A stretch of 64,000 bases of DNA, taken from Synechococcales cyanobacterium C42_A2020_086 (GTDB lineage: Bacteria > Cyanobacteriota > Cyanobacteriia > Elainellales > Elainellaceae). The DNA lies in the NCBI GenBank assembly GCA_015272325.1, contig JACYLU010000003.1, forward strand, positions 1 through 64,000. Reading direction: 5' to 3'. A program made the position numbers and the translations under genes. The notes beneath the pieces were generated by a model. It saw only the letters and a program-made list of their open reading frames with translations, did no database searches and was not told the origin of the DNA. The stretch's first letter is position 1. Every line of letters begins with the position of its first letter. Positions 1-63,514 of this stretch are shown one piece after another.

Positions 1-71
1 AGACGACAATGATTTACACCCATGTCCTAAACCGAGGTGGACGAGGGGTGAGAAGTCCGTTGGATGCATAG
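1..71 (+). CDS. Integron-type tyrosine recombinase, C-terminal end only
   Basis: Only the last 22 codons plus TAG are in the window; the frame starts at base 3. The peptide reads TTMIYTHVLNRGG followed by a GVRSPLD tail. In IntI integrases and related tyrosine recombinases, the Tyr of the IYTHV motif is the nucleophile that forms the 3'-phosphotyrosine link with DNA, and the NRGGxGVRSPLD tail is characteristic of the IntI branch. The rest of the protein, including the catalytic Arg/His residues and the IntI-specific insertion, lies outside, so activity cannot be judged. No attI or attC structure was recognised in the following 140 bp. Family assignment is from motif recall; fairly sure for tyrosine recombinase, less so for a functional integron. 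Confidence 0.7.
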   Translation, partial: TTMIYTHVLNRGGRGVRSPLDA

Positions 72-624: not shown

Positions 625-1275
625 ATGGAACTTCAAGAAAACCTGCAAGAGAATTCAACCGGAGTACAGTGGTTACTCTGGGCACAGCGGTTGCAGGCGA
701 TTGCTCAAAATGGACTGACCTTCACCGAAAACCCCTATGATGTGGAGCGGTTTAAACAAATTCTGGACGTTGCCATCGAGATGATGACCACCTACACCGA
801 TGTGGAACCCACCTATGTGCGCGAGCTGTTTGCCCAGCAGAACGGCTACGCGACGCCGAAAGTTGACGCCCGGGGAGCCGTATTTCAGGAAGACCGGGTG
901 CTGCTGGTGCGCGAGCGGGCCGACGGCAAATGGACGCTGCCTGGGGGCTGGATTGATGTTGGGGAGTCGCCCAGTGAGGCGGTGGTGCGCGAAGTCTACG
1001 AAGAATCCGGCTACGAAGCCCGGGTGATCAAACTCGCCGCTCTTTGCGATCGCAACAAGCACGGACATCCCCCGGCTCCCTTCCATGCCTACAAGCTGTT
1101 CTTCCTCTGCGAACTCACCGGCGGTGCCCCCACAACCAGCTATGAAACGACGGGCGTAGATTTTTTCCCGGTCTCGAATCTGCCGGAGTTGTCACTCACC
1201 CGTGTCGTGCCTAGCCAGATTCTGCGGCTCTACGATCACGCTCAGCATCTCGATTGGCCCACCGATTTCGACTAA
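625..1275 (+). CDS. Nudix hydrolase with N-terminal helical domain
   Basis: A 216-residue protein. Residues about 15-70 form the helical domain seen at the N-terminus of a Nudix subgroup (WLLWAQRLQAIAQNGLTF...). The catalytic Nudix domain follows: GGWIDVGESPSEAVVREVYEESG matches G-x5-E-x7-R-E-x2-E-E-x-G, the loop-helix that binds Mg2+ and hydrolyses nucleoside-diphosphate-linked substrates. The substrate is not predictable; relatives act on ADP-ribose, NADH or damaged nucleotides. The ATG at 625 is preferred over an upstream in-frame codon at 580 because AAGGAA lies at a proper distance and the family begins near MELQEN. It stands alone after a broken regulator gene; the K+ channel gene starts 62 bp downstream on the same strand. 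Confidence 0.9.
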   Translation: MELQENLQENSTGVQWLLWAQRLQAIAQNGLTFTENPYDVERFKQILDVAIEMMTTYTDVEPTYVRELFAQQNGYATPKVDARGAVFQEDRVLLVRERADGKWTLPGGWIDVGESPSEAVVREVYEESGYEARVIKLAALCDRNKHGHPPAPFHAYKLFFLCELTGGAPTTSYETTGVDFFPVSNLPELSLTRVVPSQILRLYDHAQHLDWPTDFD

Positions 1276-1337: not shown

Positions 1338-2237
1338 ATGAAACAGCCAGTCACGCCTCGGAAACGACGCCACCCCCGAGTGCAGATCAAAATTCAGAAT
1401 GGGCGGTTTCAGGTGCAGGGATTGGGCTCCTGGCATGCCTACTGGCGCGATCCCTATCACCTCTTGTTAACCGTTCCCTGGTTTGTATTCGTTATTATTC
1501 TTGTTATTTTTTATATCGGCATAAATGCGTTATTTGCACTTTTGTATTTGCTACAACCCAATGCCATTGCCAATGCTCGTCCCGGATCATTCCTAGATGC
1601 CTTCTTCTTTAGCGTGCAGACATTGGCAACGGTTGGCTATGGCAGCATGTATCCGCAGACTGTTTATGCCAATGCTGTGGTGACGGCTCAGTCCATGATT
1701 GGGTTGATGAGTGTTGCCGTGACGACGGGCTTGGCGTTTGCGCGCTTCTCCCGCCCAACGGCGCGGGTGCTCTTTAGCAACGTAGCGGTGATTTCTCCCT
1801 ACAACGACATGCCCACTCTGATGCTACGCACCGCCAATCAGCGCCGTAATCAAGTTCTAGAAGCGCAAATTCAGCTCTACCTGATGCGCGACGAAATCAG
1901 CCGCGAAGGCTATGCGCTGCGCCGCTTTTATGAGCTGAAGCTGCTGCGTCACCGCACGGCGAGCTTTACCTTGAGCTGGACGGTAATGCATCCGATTGAC
2001 GAGCAAAGCCCGCTCTATGGCATGACTCCCGAGGCGTTGATTCAGTCGCGAGTGACGCTAATAGCATCCCTGAGTGGCATCGATGAAACCGTAATGCAGC
2101 CAATCTATGCTCGCTACACCTACGGGGCGCAAGACATTCTCTGGAACCATCGCTTTGTTGATATCTTTCACGACACTCCCGACGGGCATCGCTACCTCGA
2201 TTACACCTACTTTCACAAGACCATTCCACTTCATTGA
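1338..2237 (+). CDS. Inward-rectifier potassium channel (KirBac family)
   Basis: A 299-residue integral membrane protein. A basic N-terminal slide region (RKRRHPRVQIK) precedes TM1 (about 45-72). The pore loop has the K+ selectivity filter TVGYG at residues 98-102, then TM2 (about 110-132). The rest, about 160 residues, is the cytoplasmic immunoglobulin-like domain of Kir channels (ending near DTPDGHRYLDYTYFHKT). KirBac channels are tetramers that conduct K+ and are gated by lipids and ligands at the cytoplasmic domain. Start at ATG 1338 rather than an upstream in-frame codon at 1254, because the latter overlaps the Nudix gene and adds residues with no family match. Length fits the family. 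Confidence 0.92.
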   Translation: MKQPVTPRKRRHPRVQIKIQNGRFQVQGLGSWHAYWRDPYHLLLTVPWFVFVIILVIFYIGINALFALLYLLQPNAIANARPGSFLDAFFFSVQTLATVGYGSMYPQTVYANAVVTAQSMIGLMSVAVTTGLAFARFSRPTARVLFSNVAVISPYNDMPTLMLRTANQRRNQVLEAQIQLYLMRDEISREGYALRRFYELKLLRHRTASFTLSWTVMHPIDEQSPLYGMTPEALIQSRVTLIASLSGIDETVMQPIYARYTYGAQDILWNHRFVDIFHDTPDGHRYLDYTYFHKTIPLH

Positions 2238-3022: not shown

Positions 3023-3893
3023 TCTTATCTGTTCTAGTCTGTTCTAGGTATATCTGTTTGAGGGCAGCCGCCTGATTCGGAACAGTCATCATCATTCCGT
3101 CGAGTGGGCAAAGCTCGTCAAGCCGTTGTAGGAGGACGCAAAGCAAGATGCAGAAACAATTCCACGCCGCTGTTATAACCAGACTGAGATAGAGGCGTTC
3201 ACTCCCCTACTCAGCCAGGGCTTGCCCGTCTCAAGTCTGATGGGCTGAAACGACATCAAGACGTCGGTTCAACAGCCCGCGTCGAAATCATTGCTGGTGG
3301 GACTAGAGAATCGCCGGTCTGCCGTCAGCTTTAAGCTATGGCTTTATCTGCTCACGTCACCCTGACTTTGATCTGACGTTTTGATCGGGATGACAGCAAC
3401 TCATTTGTGTAGGGTATCAACAGGTCACAGTTTGGTTCACACCGAGTTCTATGGGTGCATCTCTTTTCTAGCCTCTTCCCATCTTCTGGGATTTTTGCAG
3501 TCCGCAGCGGTTGCCCTCAAGGCTAACGATTGACCTCTAGCTCTTGCAGCCTCTCAACTTTGTTGCGATACTGTTACGCTCCTGTTACAGCGCCGTTACA
3601 CCATCTGTAACGTTAGCCAACAGCCACCTGTTCCCTTCTCGGATCGAGCCATTCGGGTGACTCGATGGGTTGGCTTGATCCATTGACTTAGCGAATGAAT
3701 TAAATTTCGTCCGGATCTAGGCACGAACCCTGTGTTAGGAGTTTTCATACTCGGTTATAGCCCCCTCACCGGCAGTTCCTCCGCTGGTGAATGGCGAGTT
3801 GGATCGATGTCCTCAGGATGCTGAACGCAACTTTAGCGTTATTAAAAACGTCACTTAGCTGAGATGCTATTTCGACTATAAGGAAACGATAGT
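3023..3893. other. 871-bp region without a gene
   Basis: No frame of gene-like composition. It begins with short direct repeats of TCTGTTCTAG (about 3012-3047) directly after the preceding stop codon, contains the phased GTTAC array described separately (3560-3611), and then serves as the leader of the RTX gene. AAGGAAACG just before 3894 is a usable ribosome binding site for that gene. Confidence 0.6.
3560..3611 (+). promoter_or_regulatory. Phased array of YYGTTRCR boxes, possible response-regulator operator
   Basis: Four 8-bp boxes are separated by exactly 3 bp: TTGTTGCG (3560-3567), CTGTTACG (3571-3578), CTGTTACA (3582-3589) and CCGTTACA (3593-3600). An inverted GTAAC follows at 3607-3611. 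An 8+3 arrangement places each box on the same face of the helix. Cyanobacterial Pho boxes, bound by the OmpR/PhoB-type regulator SphR, have this architecture, but the box sequence here differs. The array lies about 290 bp upstream of the RTX gene. The layout is seen directly; an operator role is inference. Confidence 0.5.
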
Positions 3894-4574
3894 ATGGCAC
3901 TAGTTGGAACAAATTGGAATGATGTGCTGTACGGCACTCCCTTTGATGATTTGATCTATGGTTTGGGTGGAGCCGATCTCATTTTTGCCTATGAAGGCAA
4001 TGATGATATTTATGGCGGTACTGGAAACGATATCGTCTACGCTGGAGCCGGCGATGATTTAATCTATGGCGAAGACGGCAATGACCAGGTTTTTGCTGGC
4101 TCTGGCAACGATTTGGCCTATGGTGGTTTTGGCGATGACTTGATCGATGGTGAAGCCGGCGATGACCTGCTGTTTGGTGATGCTGGCAACGATCGGATCA
4201 TTGGTGGCTTTGGTTCCGACTTTCAATCGGGCGGCAGTGGCAATGATGTGATTGAATCTCATGCAGTTGCGGTGTCCGATTTTGTAATCGAGAAAGACGA
4301 CATGACGGGCGGGGCGGGTCGAGATACCTTCCGTCTACGCACTGACTATGCTGGAGGCGCGGCGTCCATCGTGCCTTACTACGATGCTTCGTTTGCCATC
4401 ATTCGCGACTTCAATCGCACTGAGGACCGACTTGACCTCAAATATGATCAAAACTACGTGATTCGCTACGGCGATTTCTACGGCGGTAGGGCACTGGATA
4501 CCGTCCTCACTTGGCAAAACAACACCGTTGCCGTAGTGCAGGATGTGCAGCTGAGCTACGCTAATCTGAGCTAG
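3894..4574 (+). CDS. Small RTX calcium-binding repeat protein
   Basis: A 226-residue protein. From residue about 12 to 115 it is a run of nonapeptides of the GGxGxDxUx kind (for example YGGTGNDIV, AGSGNDLAY, DGEAGDDLL), which bind Ca2+ and fold as a parallel beta-roll outside the cell. The C-terminal part (about 120-226) is the peptidase-M10/serralysin-type tail with AGRDTFRLR and FNRTEDRLDL, often part of type-I secretion signals. There is no cleavable signal peptide, as expected for type-I export. No protease or lipase domain is present, so a structural or surface role is more likely than an enzyme. AAGGAAACG precedes the ATG. No secretion genes are nearby. Confidence 0.85.
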   Translation: MALVGTNWNDVLYGTPFDDLIYGLGGADLIFAYEGNDDIYGGTGNDIVYAGAGDDLIYGEDGNDQVFAGSGNDLAYGGFGDDLIDGEAGDDLLFGDAGNDRIIGGFGSDFQSGGSGNDVIESHAVAVSDFVIEKDDMTGGAGRDTFRLRTDYAGGAASIVPYYDASFAIIRDFNRTEDRLDLKYDQNYVIRYGDFYGGRALDTVLTWQNNTVAVVQDVQLSYANLS

Positions 4575-4638: not shown

Positions 4639-6996
4639 ATGTCTGAAACGTTCCTGCCTGATGCGATTGCCACAGCTCCCTTCTCATTGGAGGACATTGC
4701 GGCGGAAGGTATCAAACCGGATGAATACCGCGAAATTGTACGACGACTGGGGCGGCATCCCAACCGAGCCGAGCTGGGGATGTTTGGCGTCATGTGGTCG
4801 GAGCACTGCTGCTACAAAAACTCCCGTCCGCTGCTGAAGCAGTTTCCTACCACCGGCGAGCGGATTTTGGTGGGTCCCGGCGAAAATGCGGGCGTGGTAG
4901 ACATGGGCAACGGCTTGCAGTTGGCCTTCAAGATCGAGTCGCACAACCATCCCTCGGCGGTGGAGCCGTTTCAGGGGGCAGCGACGGGCGTGGGTGGCAT
5001 CCTGCGGGATATTTTCACGATGGGAGCGCGTCCGATTGCGGTGTTGAATTCGCTGCGGTTTGGCGATCTGGATGATGCCCGTACCAAACGATTGTTCAGC
5101 GGCGTTGTGGCGGGAATTGCCCACTACGGCAACTGTGTAGGGGTGCCGACTGTCGGCGGCGAGGTTTATTTTGATCCGGTCTATTCCGGCAACCCGCTGG
5201 TAAATGCCATGGCGATTGGCTTGATGGAAACGCCAGCCATCGTCAAGTCGGGCGCGAGTGGCATCGGCAATCCGGTGCTGTACGTTGGCTCCACCACAGG
5301 ACGCGATGGCATGGGCGGAGCCAGCTTTGCTAGCGCTGAACTTACCGATGAATCGCTGGACGACCGGCCGGCGGTGCAGGTGGGCGATCCGTTTCTGGAA
5401 AAATCGTTGATTGAAGCCTGCCTGGAAGCCTTCAAAACAGGGGCCGTAGTGGCGGCGCAAGACATGGGAGCGGCGGGCATCACCTGCTCTACGTCGGAAA
5501 TGGCAGCCAAGGGCGGCGTCGGCATTGAACTCGACCTCGATAGGATTCCGGTGCGGGAAACCGGCATGGTGCCCTACGAGTATCTGCTTTCGGAATCGCA
5601 GGAGCGGATGCTGTTTGTGGCTGAGCAAGGGCGCGAGCACGAGCTGATTGCGATCTTCGAGCGCTGGGGGCTGCACGCGGTCGTAGCGGGCACAGTGATT
5701 GCCGAACCGATTGTGCGAATTCGCTTCCAGGGAGACATCGCTGCCGAAATTCCCGCCACTGCCTTGGCGGACAACACGCCGATCTATCACCGGGAACTAT
5801 TGTCGGAACCGCCGGACTACGCCCAACAAGCTTGGACTTGGGAGGAAACCCTGCTGCCAATCAGCAGCGAAGCCGGGATTGATATTCAGGGTAGTTTCCA
5901 AAGCTGGACCGAGATTTTGCTGCGCCTGCTCGATAGCCCGACGATTGCCTCAAAGCAGTGGGTTTATCGCCAGTATGACCATCAGGTGCAAAACAACACC
6001 GTGCTGCTGCCAGGGGGAGCCGATGCAGCCGTGGTGCGTTTGCGACCGCAGGAAAGCCAAAACGAAGATCTAAAATTCTGCCGTACCGGCGTCGCCGCGA
6101 CCGTAGACTGCAATGCCCGCTATGTCTATCTTCATCCCTATGAAGGAGCCAAAATGGCTGTAGCCGAGGCTGCCCGCAACCTGAGCTGTGTTGGAGCTGA
6201 GCCGCTCGCCGTCACCGACAATCTTAACTTCGGCAGCCCCGAGAAGCCCGTGGGCTACTGGCAGCTCGCAGAGGCTTGTCGTGGATTGGCAGAAGCCTGT
6301 GCAGAGTTCGCCACGCCTGTAACCGGAGGCAACGTCTCGCTCTACAACGAAACCCTGGATGCAGCCGGAAATCCTCAGGCGATTTACCCAACCCCTGTGG
6401 TCGGCATGGTAGGACTCGTGCCCGATATCACCCGCGTCTGTGGGCAGGGCTGGCAAGCCGACGGAGATGCGATCTATCTGCTGGGAATCAGCAAGACGAC
6501 CTCCCCGACTCTGACGCTGGGCGGCTCAGAATATCTGGCTGTCGTCCACGGTACGGTTGCCGGCAAACCGCCAATTGTGGATTTCGAGCAGGAACGACGG
6601 GTGCAGTCCGCCTGCCGTGAAGGAATTCGACGAGGCTGGGTGCGGTCGGCCCATGACTGTGCCGAAGGAGGATTGGCGGTGGCATTGGCAGAATCCTGCA
6701 TCAGTGGACAGCGAGGAGCGGTGATTCAGCTCAGCCCGGCAGCAAATCAGCGCTGGGATCATCTGCTGTTTGCCGAGGGCGGGGCGCGGATTCTGGTTTC
6801 TGTTGCGCCCGAGCAGACGGCAGACTGGGAAGCCTACCTGAAGCAGCAGCTCGGCAGCGCTTGGCAGCGGTTAGGCCAAGTCGAGGGAACTGCCTTGCAG
6901 ATCGGTGATGAACCCGATTCATGGGCGATCAACGCTAGCATTGAAGAGATCAGTCTGTCTTGGCTGAATGCGTTGGAGCGGCGGCTAGCGTCTTAA
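4639..6996 (+). CDS. purL: Phosphoribosylformylglycinamidine synthase subunit PurL
   Basis: A 785-residue small-type PurL. It catalyses ATP-dependent conversion of FGAR and glutamine-derived ammonia to FGAM in purine synthesis, working with PurQ and PurS, which are not in this window. The N-terminal half has the family signature [15 protein letters not shown], the nucleotide-binding [10 protein letters not shown] and [14 protein letters not shown] with the His/Glu of the active site, then [18 protein letters not shown]. The second AIRS-like half has [10 protein letters not shown] and [14 protein letters not shown]. Length matches the stand-alone bacterial form. Starts at ATG 4639 (MSETFLPD); no clear ribosome binding site, but a hairpin precedes it. 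purF follows 199 bp downstream on the same strand. Confidence 0.97.
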
Positions 6997-7195: not shown

Positions 7196-8710
7196 ATGAT
7201 GCCAACTTCTGCCGATCACGCTGCTGCGGACTCTCCTTCGGATTCCCCGAATTCTGCTTACCCACACCCTACAGCTCGCCCGGACAAACCGGAAGAAGCC
7301 TGTGGGGTGTTTGGAATTTATGCTCCCGAAGAGGATGTAGCCAAACTGACTTACTTCGGGCTGTATGCCTTGCAGCATCGCGGTCAAGAGTCTGCGGGTA
7401 TCGCCACGTTCCAGAATGGACAGGTTCATCTGTATAAGGAGATGGGGCTGGTTTCGCAAGTGTTCAACGAGCACATTCTCCGCGATCTGCCAGGCGAGTT
7501 GGCTGTTGGTCATACCCGCTATTCCACGACGGGATCAAGCCGCGTGGTGAATGCTCAGCCGGCTGTTGTAGACACCCGCTTGGGATCACTAGCCCTAGCG
7601 CACAACGGTAATTTAGTGAACACGGCGGAGCTGCGGGACGAGCTGCTGCAGACGAATGTTCAGCTGATGACCACCACCGATTCTGAGATGATCGCCTTTG
7701 CCATTGCCGAAGCGGTAAATTCTGGCAAGGACTGGCTGGAGGGTGCCATTACCGCCTTCAAGCGCTGCCAAGGCGCTTTTAGTCTGGCGATCGCAACGCC
7801 CATCGGCATCATGGGAGCGCGCGATCCTAATGGTATCCGCCCACTGGTGATCGGTACACTACAAAACGAGGATTCCACCACGCTGCGCTATGTCATCGCT
7901 TCCGAGACCTGTGCCCTCGATATTATCGGCGCTGACTATTTGCGGGACGTGGAGCCAGGCGAGCTGGTCTGGATCACAGAAGCAGGACTGGCGTCGTTCC
8001 ATTGGGCGACGAGACCCGAGCGCAAACTTTGCATTTTCGAGATGATCTACTTCGCTCGTCCTGATAGCGTCATGCATGAGGAGAGCCTCTACAGCTATCG
8101 GCTGCGTCTAGGGCGGCAGTTGGCCATCGAATCTCCAGCAGAGGTGGATCTGGTAATGGGGGTGCCAGACTCGGGCGTGCCAGCAGCCATTGGCTTCTCC
8201 CAGGAGTCAGGCATTCCCTACGCCGAGGGCTTAATCAAAAACCGCTACGTTGGGCGCACCTTTATTCAGCCGACGCAGACCATGCGGGAATCGGGCATTC
8301 GCATGAAGCTGAATCCGCTCAGGGATGTGCTGGTCGGCAAACGGGTGCTCATCGTAGACGACTCGATCGTGCGGGGCACGACCAGCCGCAAAATTGTTAA
8401 AGCACTGCGCGATGCTGGAGCTACTGAGGTGCATATGCGCATCTCGTCGCCGCCGGTGACTCACCCCTGCTTCTACGGTATCGATACCGACACTCAAGAT
8501 CAGCTGATTGCTGCCACCAAATCGGTCGAGGAAATTACGCAGCAAATTGGCGTCGATTCTCTCGCTTATCTGAGTTGGGAGGGGATGCTGCTAGCCACCC
8601 GTGAAGATCCCAACAGTTTTTGCTCGGCTTGCTTCACCGGAGATTACCCAATTACTGTCCCGGAACCAGTGAAGCGCTCGAAGCTGATGCTGGAGAAGCT
8701 GTCAGTCTAG
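7196..8710 (+). CDS. purF: Amidophosphoribosyltransferase PurF
   Basis: A 504-residue enzyme making phosphoribosylamine from PRPP and glutamine, the first step of purine synthesis. A propeptide of about 35 residues ends before Cys36 in EEACGVFGIYAPEE; this Cys becomes the N-terminal nucleophile after processing. The glutaminase domain shows LQHRGQESAGIA and VGHTRYSTTGSS. The phosphoribosyltransferase domain has the PRPP loop VLIVDDSIVRGTT. The spaced cysteines of the [4Fe-4S]-type enzyme (CALDI, CFYGID, CSACF) are present. Several ATGs lie close together (7196, 7199); no strong ribosome binding site separates them. Placed just after purL, so the two form a purine cluster; purB is 40 kb away. 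Confidence 0.97.
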   Translation: MMPTSADHAAADSPSDSPNSAYPHPTARPDKPEEACGVFGIYAPEEDVAKLTYFGLYALQHRGQESAGIATFQNGQVHLYKEMGLVSQVFNEHILRDLPGELAVGHTRYSTTGSSRVVNAQPAVVDTRLGSLALAHNGNLVNTAELRDELLQTNVQLMTTTDSEMIAFAIAEAVNSGKDWLEGAITAFKRCQGAFSLAIATPIGIMGARDPNGIRPLVIGTLQNEDSTTLRYVIASETCALDIIGADYLRDVEPGELVWITEAGLASFHWATRPERKLCIFEMIYFARPDSVMHEESLYSYRLRLGRQLAIESPAEVDLVMGVPDSGVPAAIGFSQESGIPYAEGLIKNRYVGRTFIQPTQTMRESGIRMKLNPLRDVLVGKRVLIVDDSIVRGTTSRKIVKALRDAGATEVHMRISSPPVTHPCFYGIDTDTQDQLIAATKSVEEITQQIGVDSLAYLSWEGMLLATREDPNSFCSACFTGDYPITVPEPVKRSKLMLEKLSV

Positions 8711-8763: not shown

Positions 8764-9516
8764 ATGAAAGCTGTACACCGCGTGTTACGTCACTGTTTGG
8801 CTTGGAGTCTAAGTCTTTTTCTCCTGGTAGCAGGGTGGGGGTTAGCGTCGCCCGTTGCCGCCGCGTCAGGCAGTTCTGATCTCGATGCAGAGGCAATCTT
8901 CCGCAGCGCCTACGAGAATCGCTACACCTGGGACGAGAACTTTCCTGGGTATCAGACGGAGGTGGTGCTGCAATCGGGCAGTGGCACCTATCGAGGTGTG
9001 GCGGAACTGCTGCCTGACTTCGGCGTAATTGTTAAAGAAATTCCCGATGAGGAGATGCAGCAGGTGATCGCGGCGCAGTTGCAAATGAGTGCTACCCATC
9101 TGCAGCGGGTAGATTTCGATCAGGTGCATCCGCAGCGGTCTTTCCTGCTCACGGGTACCGATGCCGCCGGCGCGTCCGAAATTGCTGAACTCGACGGCGC
9201 TACGAATTCTCACTACAAAGTCAAAGATCGCGAGATCATTCAGGTCAACCGCACCTTGGGTAATTTGGCAGTCGAGGTGAATACGACCGATTTCCAGCAA
9301 ACCCCCGACGGCTACTTGGCGACTCATTTTCAGGTTACCTTTCGCGACGCCAAAACCGGAGCGACGCTAGAGCAAGACGATGTGCAGGACACCTACAGCC
9401 GGATTGGTAATTACTACATCATGACACGCCGCCAAATCCAAGCCGGACAAGACGATCCGGCAGAGAACACCGTTGCCAGCACTAACATTCAATTCAACCG
9501 CATTCAGCTTAAGTAA
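8764..9516 (+). CDS. DUF3386 family exported protein
   Basis: A 250-residue protein of a cyanobacteria/plastid family of unknown function. The N-terminus is a signal peptide (positive residues, hydrophobic AWSLSLFLLVAGWGLA, then SPVAAAS), so the mature part is periplasmic or lumenal. The body shows the family features DAEAIFRSAYENRYTW, PGYQTEVVL and FQVTFRDAKTG, and an ending with a polar TRRQIQ segment. The in-frame upstream extension to 8620 overlaps purF and lacks a signal, so ATG 8764 is chosen. It is 53 bp after purF and may be read with it. No link to purine synthesis is known. Confidence 0.85.
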   Translation: MKAVHRVLRHCLAWSLSLFLLVAGWGLASPVAAASGSSDLDAEAIFRSAYENRYTWDENFPGYQTEVVLQSGSGTYRGVAELLPDFGVIVKEIPDEEMQQVIAAQLQMSATHLQRVDFDQVHPQRSFLLTGTDAAGASEIAELDGATNSHYKVKDREIIQVNRTLGNLAVEVNTTDFQQTPDGYLATHFQVTFRDAKTGATLEQDDVQDTYSRIGNYYIMTRRQIQAGQDDPAENTVASTNIQFNRIQLK

Positions 9517-62002: not shown

Positions 62003-63514
62003 ATGGCACGTAAAATTCAATCACGCTGGAAAATTAGCGGTACATTGACGGCTGAAACCCCCATTCATATTGGCGGGATGGGAGGGGATGCCGATACGGA
62101 TCTGGCCTTAGCCATTAATGGTCGGGGCAACTACTACATTCCTGGAACTAGCCTTGCAGGAACTTTGCGTGGTTGGATGGGGCGATCGCTGGCAGAGCCA
62201 GATGTTAATAAGCTATGGGGATTTCAAGACAAAAATAACGGCCATGCCAGTTTCATTACCATTGAGGATGCTCCGGTCACGCTGCCACACGGCATGACAA
62301 TCGAAATCCGGGAAGGGGTAGGCATCGATCGTCATACTGGAGCCGCTGCCGACAAAATTAAATACAGTCGCGCTATCCTTCCTAAAGGGGTCACCTTTCC
62401 GCTGAACATTACCCTCGATCGTCAAACAGACCAAAGTCCTGAAGAACTCTGGCGACTTCTGCTGGCATTAGAGCAAGGAGATATCCGCATTGGAGCCGCT
62501 AAGACGCGAGGGCTGGGACAGGTTAAGCTGGAAATTTCAAGCATTTATGAACAGAAATTTAACGCTGAGAATGTCTTTGACGTTTTACTGAATGGGGGAA
62601 ACCGTCACCAGTGGAAGGCTCTCAAGCCTCAACAGTATATTCCACCTCAAAAACTAGCTCTAAACATTACCTGGAAACCCAAAGATCCCGTGATGGTCAA
62701 AGCCGAAGGGGATGGGATTGCTGTGGATATTTTGCCTCTGGTCAGTCAGGTAACAGGGAAAATACATTTTGTGATTCCCGGTAGCTCAATCAAAGGGGTA
62801 CTGCGTGCCCATGCCGAGCGAATTGTGCGCACAGTCTGCAATATTTCACCTACGCCAGATAAGTTTCTTGAGCAGGTTAAACTAGCTTTAGTCAATGAGT
62901 TATTTGGTTCGGCTGAGAAAAGCAACACCCGGCAATCAGAAGGGAAAATCGGTGCGCTGTCTGTGGATGATTGCTATGCCACGCTGGAAATGGCTCCTGA
63001 CCACTGGGCTAAAGTCGAAAATGCGCCTAAAGATCAGAATGAAACCTTTGCCCACTTCAAGCAAACCCTGGCTACAACTTTGAAAGGCACCAGGCAGCCC
63101 TTTCAAACCTTGCAACCTGCAATGCATGTGGCCGTCGATCGCTGGACAGGTGGAGCCGCTGATGGAATGCTCTACAGTGTTTTGGAACCGATCGGAGTGG
63201 AGTGGCATCCGATCAATATTCATGTGGATTTGGAACGCCTTAAGAAATATGGAGAAGATAAAGTTCAACCTGCGATCGCCCTTCTTCTGCTGGTGCTTAG
63301 AGACTTTGCCGATCGCAAAATTCCCATCGGCTACGGCACCAATCGGGGCATGGGTACAGTTGAAGTAACCGCAATGCAGATGAACTGTAGCTTGCTAAAT
63401 GGACTGGAGGGTATCGAGGATATAGAAACAATTGCAACAGACCTATCCAATCTTGGCGAAGCATTGCTGAATACATTAACTCAAGCCTGGATTAACTGGA
63501 TTGAATGTCATTAA
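62003..63514 (+). CDS. Cas7-2x: two fused Cas7 (Csm3-like) backbone units
   Basis: A 503-residue protein made of two RAMP domains. The first (1 to about 185): ISGTLTAETPIHIGGMGGDADTD with Asp29/31/33 in the loop that cuts RNA in Csm3/Cmr4 proteins, YYIPGTSLAGTLRGWMGR, and the Gly-rich IGAAKTRGLGQV. The second (about 215-495): ALNITWKPKDPVMVKAEGDGIAVD with Asp237 and Asp242 as candidates, FVIPGSSIKGVLRAHAERI, and IPIGYGTNRGMGTVEV. Both halves keep the PGxSxxGxLR helix. In III-Dv complexes such a double subunit forms two backbone positions and provides two cleavage sites. It starts three bases after the preceding stop. Confidence 0.9.
   Translation: MARKIQSRWKISGTLTAETPIHIGGMGGDADTDLALAINGRGNYYIPGTSLAGTLRGWMGRSLAEPDVNKLWGFQDKNNGHASFITIEDAPVTLPHGMTIEIREGVGIDRHTGAAADKIKYSRAILPKGVTFPLNITLDRQTDQSPEELWRLLLALEQGDIRIGAAKTRGLGQVKLEISSIYEQKFNAENVFDVLLNGGNRHQWKALKPQQYIPPQKLALNITWKPKDPVMVKAEGDGIAVDILPLVSQVTGKIHFVIPGSSIKGVLRAHAERIVRTVCNISPTPDKFLEQVKLALVNELFGSAEKSNTRQSEGKIGALSVDDCYATLEMAPDHWAKVENAPKDQNETFAHFKQTLATTLKGTRQPFQTLQPAMHVAVDRWTGGAADGMLYSVLEPIGVEWHPINIHVDLERLKKYGEDKVQPAIALLLLVLRDFADRKIPIGYGTNRGMGTVEVTAMQMNCSLLNGLEGIEDIETIATDLSNLGEALLNTLTQAWINWIECH

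Follow-up and report, generated by a model that had tools for sequence, protein, structure and literature searches.

Contig ends of an Elainellaceae cyanobacterium point to two probable chromosomal integrons that share a missing attI-intI region

Which recombinase gene ends within the first bases of a cyanobacterial contig, and where is the rest of it? The window, a stretch of 64,000 nucleotides from Synechococcales cyanobacterium C42_A2020_086, starts at base 1 of contig C2 (JACYLU010000003.1), so the gene is truncated by the end of the assembled sequence, and the genome itself need not be broken there. Positions 3-71 translate to TTMIYTHVLNRGGRGVRSPLDA followed by a stop (in the translation of 3-74). 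This peptide holds the catalytic-tyrosine motif TTMIYTHV and the IntI tail NRGGRGVRSPLD.

The 22 residues match positions 293-314 of the 315 of NCBIfam model TIGR02249 (integron integrase) with an E-value of 1.8e-07, and the integron integrase model PRK15417 with an E-value of 1.5e-4. At E<=0.1, this very short piece drew no other match from NCBIfam and none from Pfam. The TIGR02249 score of 29.5-30.9 bits comes from 22 residues only, the curated cut-off of 265 bits being set for the whole protein. A profile search of the whole genome matched the same stretch (E 9e-6), and the tail is identical in 22 of 22 residues to that of L005, a near-full-length integrase of a relative with one in-frame stop. 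By translation and NCBIfam alike, the catalytic-tyrosine region at the C-terminus is of the IntI type. All seven aligned full-length relatives contain the IntI-specific insert around GYGSVYLPxALERKYPNADRxWIWQYVFP, which we take to be the IntI patch (patch III). As judged from sequence, these matches confirm the initial annotation in that positions 3-71 encode the predicted tail of an integron integrase, not of XerC/XerD. A profile search of the contigs did not find the integrase body; only the tail was assembled.

We compared all 76 contig ends of the genome. A second copy of the tail lies at the right end of C29, with 97% identity over 66 bases, of which the first 59 are identical. The tail thus occurs exactly twice in the genome, both times at a contig end, and C2 and C29 part ways at the end of intI. 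The left ends of C3 and C18 have 55 bases in common, which on the opposite strand read CTAACTATATATTCACCGTC...; the two ends part directly after GTTAG. This attI-type sequence is found about 200 bp upstream of intI in the relatives L035 (exact) and L041 (one mismatch). Allowing up to three mismatches, the attI pattern matches the genome in two places, the left ends of C3 and C18; read backwards, it has no match there at the same tolerance.

Many contig ends of this assembly have their first 53-55 bases in common with some other end, which is normal for repeats assembled from k-mers, and some groups of them resemble the ends of insertion sequences. The overlap of C2 and C29 spans 59 bases, against the usual 53-55. 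The smallest contigs measure 4,400 and 4,425 bases, from which we infer that an attI-intI unit of one to two kb was possibly filtered out. A two-copy attI-intI unit that is absent from the released contigs would account for finding attI twice on one side and the integrase tail twice on the other. Most likely, the genome contains two chromosomal integrons, and the assembly collapsed and dropped the attI-intI part common to both. The attI ends are linked to the intI ends by copy number and by the layout in relatives, and the connection is accordingly a presumed one. Synteny gave no pairing of the ends in the relatives searched, where one C3-side gene and one C29-side gene were looked for together: such genes lie on separate contigs or no closer to each other than about 166 kb. 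Separately, 18 contig ends, including the right end of C2 (L048), start with one of two sequences, both ending in CATGCAACAACGCC; these probably mark both termini of an insertion sequence whose many copies break up the assembly.

We propose, with a probability of about 0.9, that the intI whose 3' end opens the window belongs to a sedentary chromosomal integron, and that the genome has two such platforms. Each would consist of cassettes, attI and intI, in that order, with an attI-intI part so alike at both ends that it was merged by the assembler and left out of the release. The left ends of C3 and C18 would form the cassette side, and the left end of C2 (the window) and the right end of C29 the far side. 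The integrase would recombine the attC of circular cassettes with attI, whose G^TTAG core beside the intI start would serve as the insertion point, and would so build the arrays on C18 and C3. We infer that the missing stretch is a complete, working attI-intI. The sequence itself shows an IntI tail in two copies, attI likewise in two copies that part at the crossover core, and the attC-bounded cassettes described below.

Table 1 Coordinates of the features of the window (contig C2) and of the two cassette-side contigs.
Feature	Contig	Position	Strand	Basis or remark
Repeat terminus, base-for-base as in the right end of C29 (read inward)	C2	1..59	+	Contig-end comparison
3' end of intI: last 22 codons and stop TAG (69-71)	C2	3..71	+	Translation; TIGR02249 and PRK15417 matches
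Truncated response-regulator receiver domain, 75 aa	C2	210..437	+	PF00072 positions 2-62 of 111; downstream of intI
Convincing attC	C18 (L188)	1733-1820		Full attC look; the five convincing sites lie within 9.5 kb
Convincing attC	C18 (L188)	3043-3141		Full attC look
Convincing attC	C18 (L188)	6654-6742		Full attC look
Convincing attC	C18 (L188)	8246-8332		Full attC look
Convincing attC	C18 (L188)	9359-9445		Full attC look
Doubtful attC	C18 (L188)	3956-4058		Inside an ORF
attC	C3 (L189)	950-1040		4 rows on C3 against a shuffle mean of 0.4
attC	C3 (L189)	9073-9156		As above

Sites of the attC type were sought as paired RYYYAAC and GTTRRRY cores with a duplex energy of at most -15, and a stricter filter was applied as well. 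The scan covered C18:1-20000 (L188), C3:1-20000 (L189) and C18:20001-40000 (L190). Without further filtering, these gave 17, 8 and 2 rows, with shuffle means of 1.4, 3.2 and 3.0, respectively. Under the stricter filter, L188 retained six sites in 12 rows (both strands), against 0-2 rows (mean 0.7) in ten shuffles, and L190 had no attC, its shuffle mean being 0.5. Cassette arrays bounded by attC therefore lie beside both attI copies, with five convincing sites on C18 and two on C3.

The cassettes of C18 encode a LysR regulator and a class-I glutamine amidotransferase, a Cys/Met PLP enzyme, an AraC-type regulator with DUF6597, an ORF (L188:5893-6600) with two tandem Arr-ms (rifampin ADP-ribosyltransferase) stretches, a trypsin-like protease, and DUF433 with DUF5615. 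Those of C3 include a TPR protein, a 1434-residue protein without a Pfam match, a PIN-domain protein, a kinase-like protein and a Gp49/HTH_37 pair. These are genes of ordinary integron kinds, toxin-antitoxin-like pairs among them. By eye, the gene of the Cys/Met PLP enzyme (L188:1869-3038) looks far richer in G+C than its neighbours, which suggests that this cassette was captured from a distant donor. After the last attC of C3 comes a gene that we take to be tsaD; nearly every relative has a single copy of it, and it seems to belong to the native chromosome.

The second half of the receiver gene downstream of intI was not found in the genome, and the best other match of the fragment there is 48% identical; a Nudix hydrolase and then an inward-rectifier-type channel follow it. 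The fragment had been tied to cassette turnover. It is real, but it lies downstream of intI while the cassettes lie upstream, and there is no attC near it. One candidate attC in the window, at 62401-62528, was rejected, as its two rows compare with 0-8 (mean 3.0) in ten shuffles. The search for attC sites thus came out negative for the window, with one site below the shuffle average, and positive for C18 and C3. Since no attC rises above chance in the whole window, the cassettes should lie across the missing gene from the window, an arrangement shared with known integrons. The integron context itself, suspected from the tail, is borne out by the attI and attC sites of the genome.

Integrons had also been taken to be uncommon in cyanobacteria, a view that does not suit Elainellaceae: an IntI match at E<=1e-20 occurs in 25 of 36 genomes of the family, and one above the family cut-off in 18. 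The present genome is scored as a miss in that count, because only its tail is assembled. In a set of 40 genomes that includes it, 17 are above the cut-off. Passages of two earlier papers already name Cyanobacteria in connection with integrons, as hosts in 2008 (PMC2426708) and again in 2021 (PMC8618304). According to the relevant sections of PMC9024848, 22% of IntI-bearing genomes encode more than one IntI, attI is poorly described outside class 1, and draft assemblies split integrons. Among the titles and abstract openings returned by our literature searches, nothing was devoted to cyanobacterial integrons or to dispersed attI units.

Three other readings compete with the two-platform one. 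The tail could come from XerC/XerD or a phage-type tyrosine recombinase, given that these, like IntI, are tyrosine recombinases whose catalytic tyrosine sits in a motif of this kind; yet at E<=0.1 NCBIfam and Pfam return no Xer-type model, only the two integron integrase models of NCBIfam, and the full agreement with the near-full-length IntI of L005 and the presence of attI and attC in the same genome make this origin highly improbable. Alternatively, the four contig ends might belong to more than two platforms and not to two simple loci. The 59-base overlap, odd for this assembly, would then find a place, but attI and the tail have exactly two matches each, and we regard a third platform as improbable.

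Somewhat harder to dismiss, although still unlikely, is that the integron is dead: both tails would be what remains of it, as pseudogenes or deletion derivatives like those of several relatives, and the arrays would be relics. Internally deleted intI genes are common in these: five copies in one genome, G002 (L028-L032), carry one internal deletion with the same junction. In-frame stops occur in some long integrases of relatives, and the integrase body is missing from our assembly. The collapse of a two-copy repeat accounts for that absence without any loss, however, in an assembly whose smallest contigs are of about 4.4 kb, and the attC sites appear intact. We return to a chromosomal integron of a known kind, probably present twice. 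Like sedentary chromosomal integrons, it has an IntI tail, attI with G^TTAG, attC hairpins bounding the cassettes, and cassettes 5' of intI. It differs from them in its two probable platforms with near-identical ends and in its short arrays, of five and two convincing attC. Contrary to other genomes with more than one intI, the copies share attI and their likeness stops at the end of intI; in relatives, the copies share one internal deletion instead. The window is a clean case of a draft assembly hiding duplicated integrons at contig ends.

Relatives of this genome contain, in addition, dispersed units with attI and little or no intI; none was seen in the genome itself. G002 has one integrase match above the cut-off (with an in-frame stop) and one further long partial. 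Of its five deleted copies, four (L028-L031) have a readable left edge, CTAACTACTG, and unrelated flanks. On the attI side of L030, at least 350 bases are repeated at 99% at C1:454289-454649 of G002, on the cassette side of the main integrase and about 8 kb away from it; by eye, that segment abuts an attC-like hairpin, not listed by the finder, at the same GTTAGGC edge. A cassette inserted at an attI whose intI is deleted would produce such a flank. In G009, four attI copies (L145, L146, L149, L150) are followed by at most the first codons of intI and then by a downstream module.

Upstream of 15 attI/intI loci, we counted 23 attC-like sites against 4.0 in shuffles (262,972 bases), four of the 23 being one recurring sequence and four hairpins within attI. 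Around 19 intI-less or intI-deleted units with a left edge, raw attC-like matches number five in the left and three in the right flanks, with 0.6 in shuffled left flanks. This difference between left and right is unconvincing; only three strong left sites (L031, L132, L138), at -28 to -35 kcal/mol and 0.7-1.3 kb from attI, are convincing. Rfam gave nothing at the gathering score for 11 loci with attI or intI, except one group II intron; a group II intron match lies at L037:5535-5617, in an integron integrase locus of G030.

In both G002 and G009, the unit extends through a leader rich in hairpins to an ORF of 66 aa. The ORF has matches in 9 of 24 genomes, with up to 22 copies per genome and none in the present one. 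Upstream of 68 copies examined, 66 of them with upstream sequence, attI-like sequence was found in 16 cases (four of these matches being to the attI of the same genome), against none downstream and none in shuffled upstream regions. Fourteen copies have intI or its remnants upstream, including three complete or near-complete integrases. Twelve copies in G011 have no attI, so the module is not tied to it. For 10 of the 28 predicted pairs in the leader, one or more of 17 sequences differ in both paired bases, consistent with a structured, covarying RNA; Rfam returned one weak, chance-like match only. The small ORFs have no match in Pfam or NCBIfam at E<=0.1, and none was confirmed in viral contigs. 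Likeness among the dispersed units mostly goes no further than the small ORF's stop codon; this boundary could also stem from selection on the protein, and so settles no fixed right-hand end. The module ORFs end in VLxR, at loci that include L135, L041, L031 and L287. Another small ORF, MSDEFINIPTGTDRP..., lies in reverse orientation downstream of intI in L034 and L036 (G011); it has no Pfam or NCBIfam match and resembles the 66-aa family by eye.

In most descriptions, integron platforms are immobile and depend on a transposon to move. We tentatively put forward, as a possibility with the odds against it, that the platform of this family disperses. A unit from the attI core through intI would be copied to new places, in several genomes together with the structured RNA leader and the conserved 66-aa ORF. 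Copies with intI largely or wholly gone would persist and take up cassettes, as attI docking sites served by an integrase in trans. One genome would thereby become an attI network, of which our two platforms would represent the simplest stage. Classed by existing schemes, the dispersed units would count as CALIN, the clusters of attC without an integrase, or be missed, since the program that detects these does not search attI outside class 1, according to the portion of PMC9024848 that describes it. They differ from CALIN in keeping a recognisable attI and often a common RNA-ORF module. These intI-less attI units may be a novel lead, and the part most worth following. If they do spread and receive cassettes, they would explain concretely how cassette clusters without an integrase arise, and provide a system for testing the use of attI in trans.
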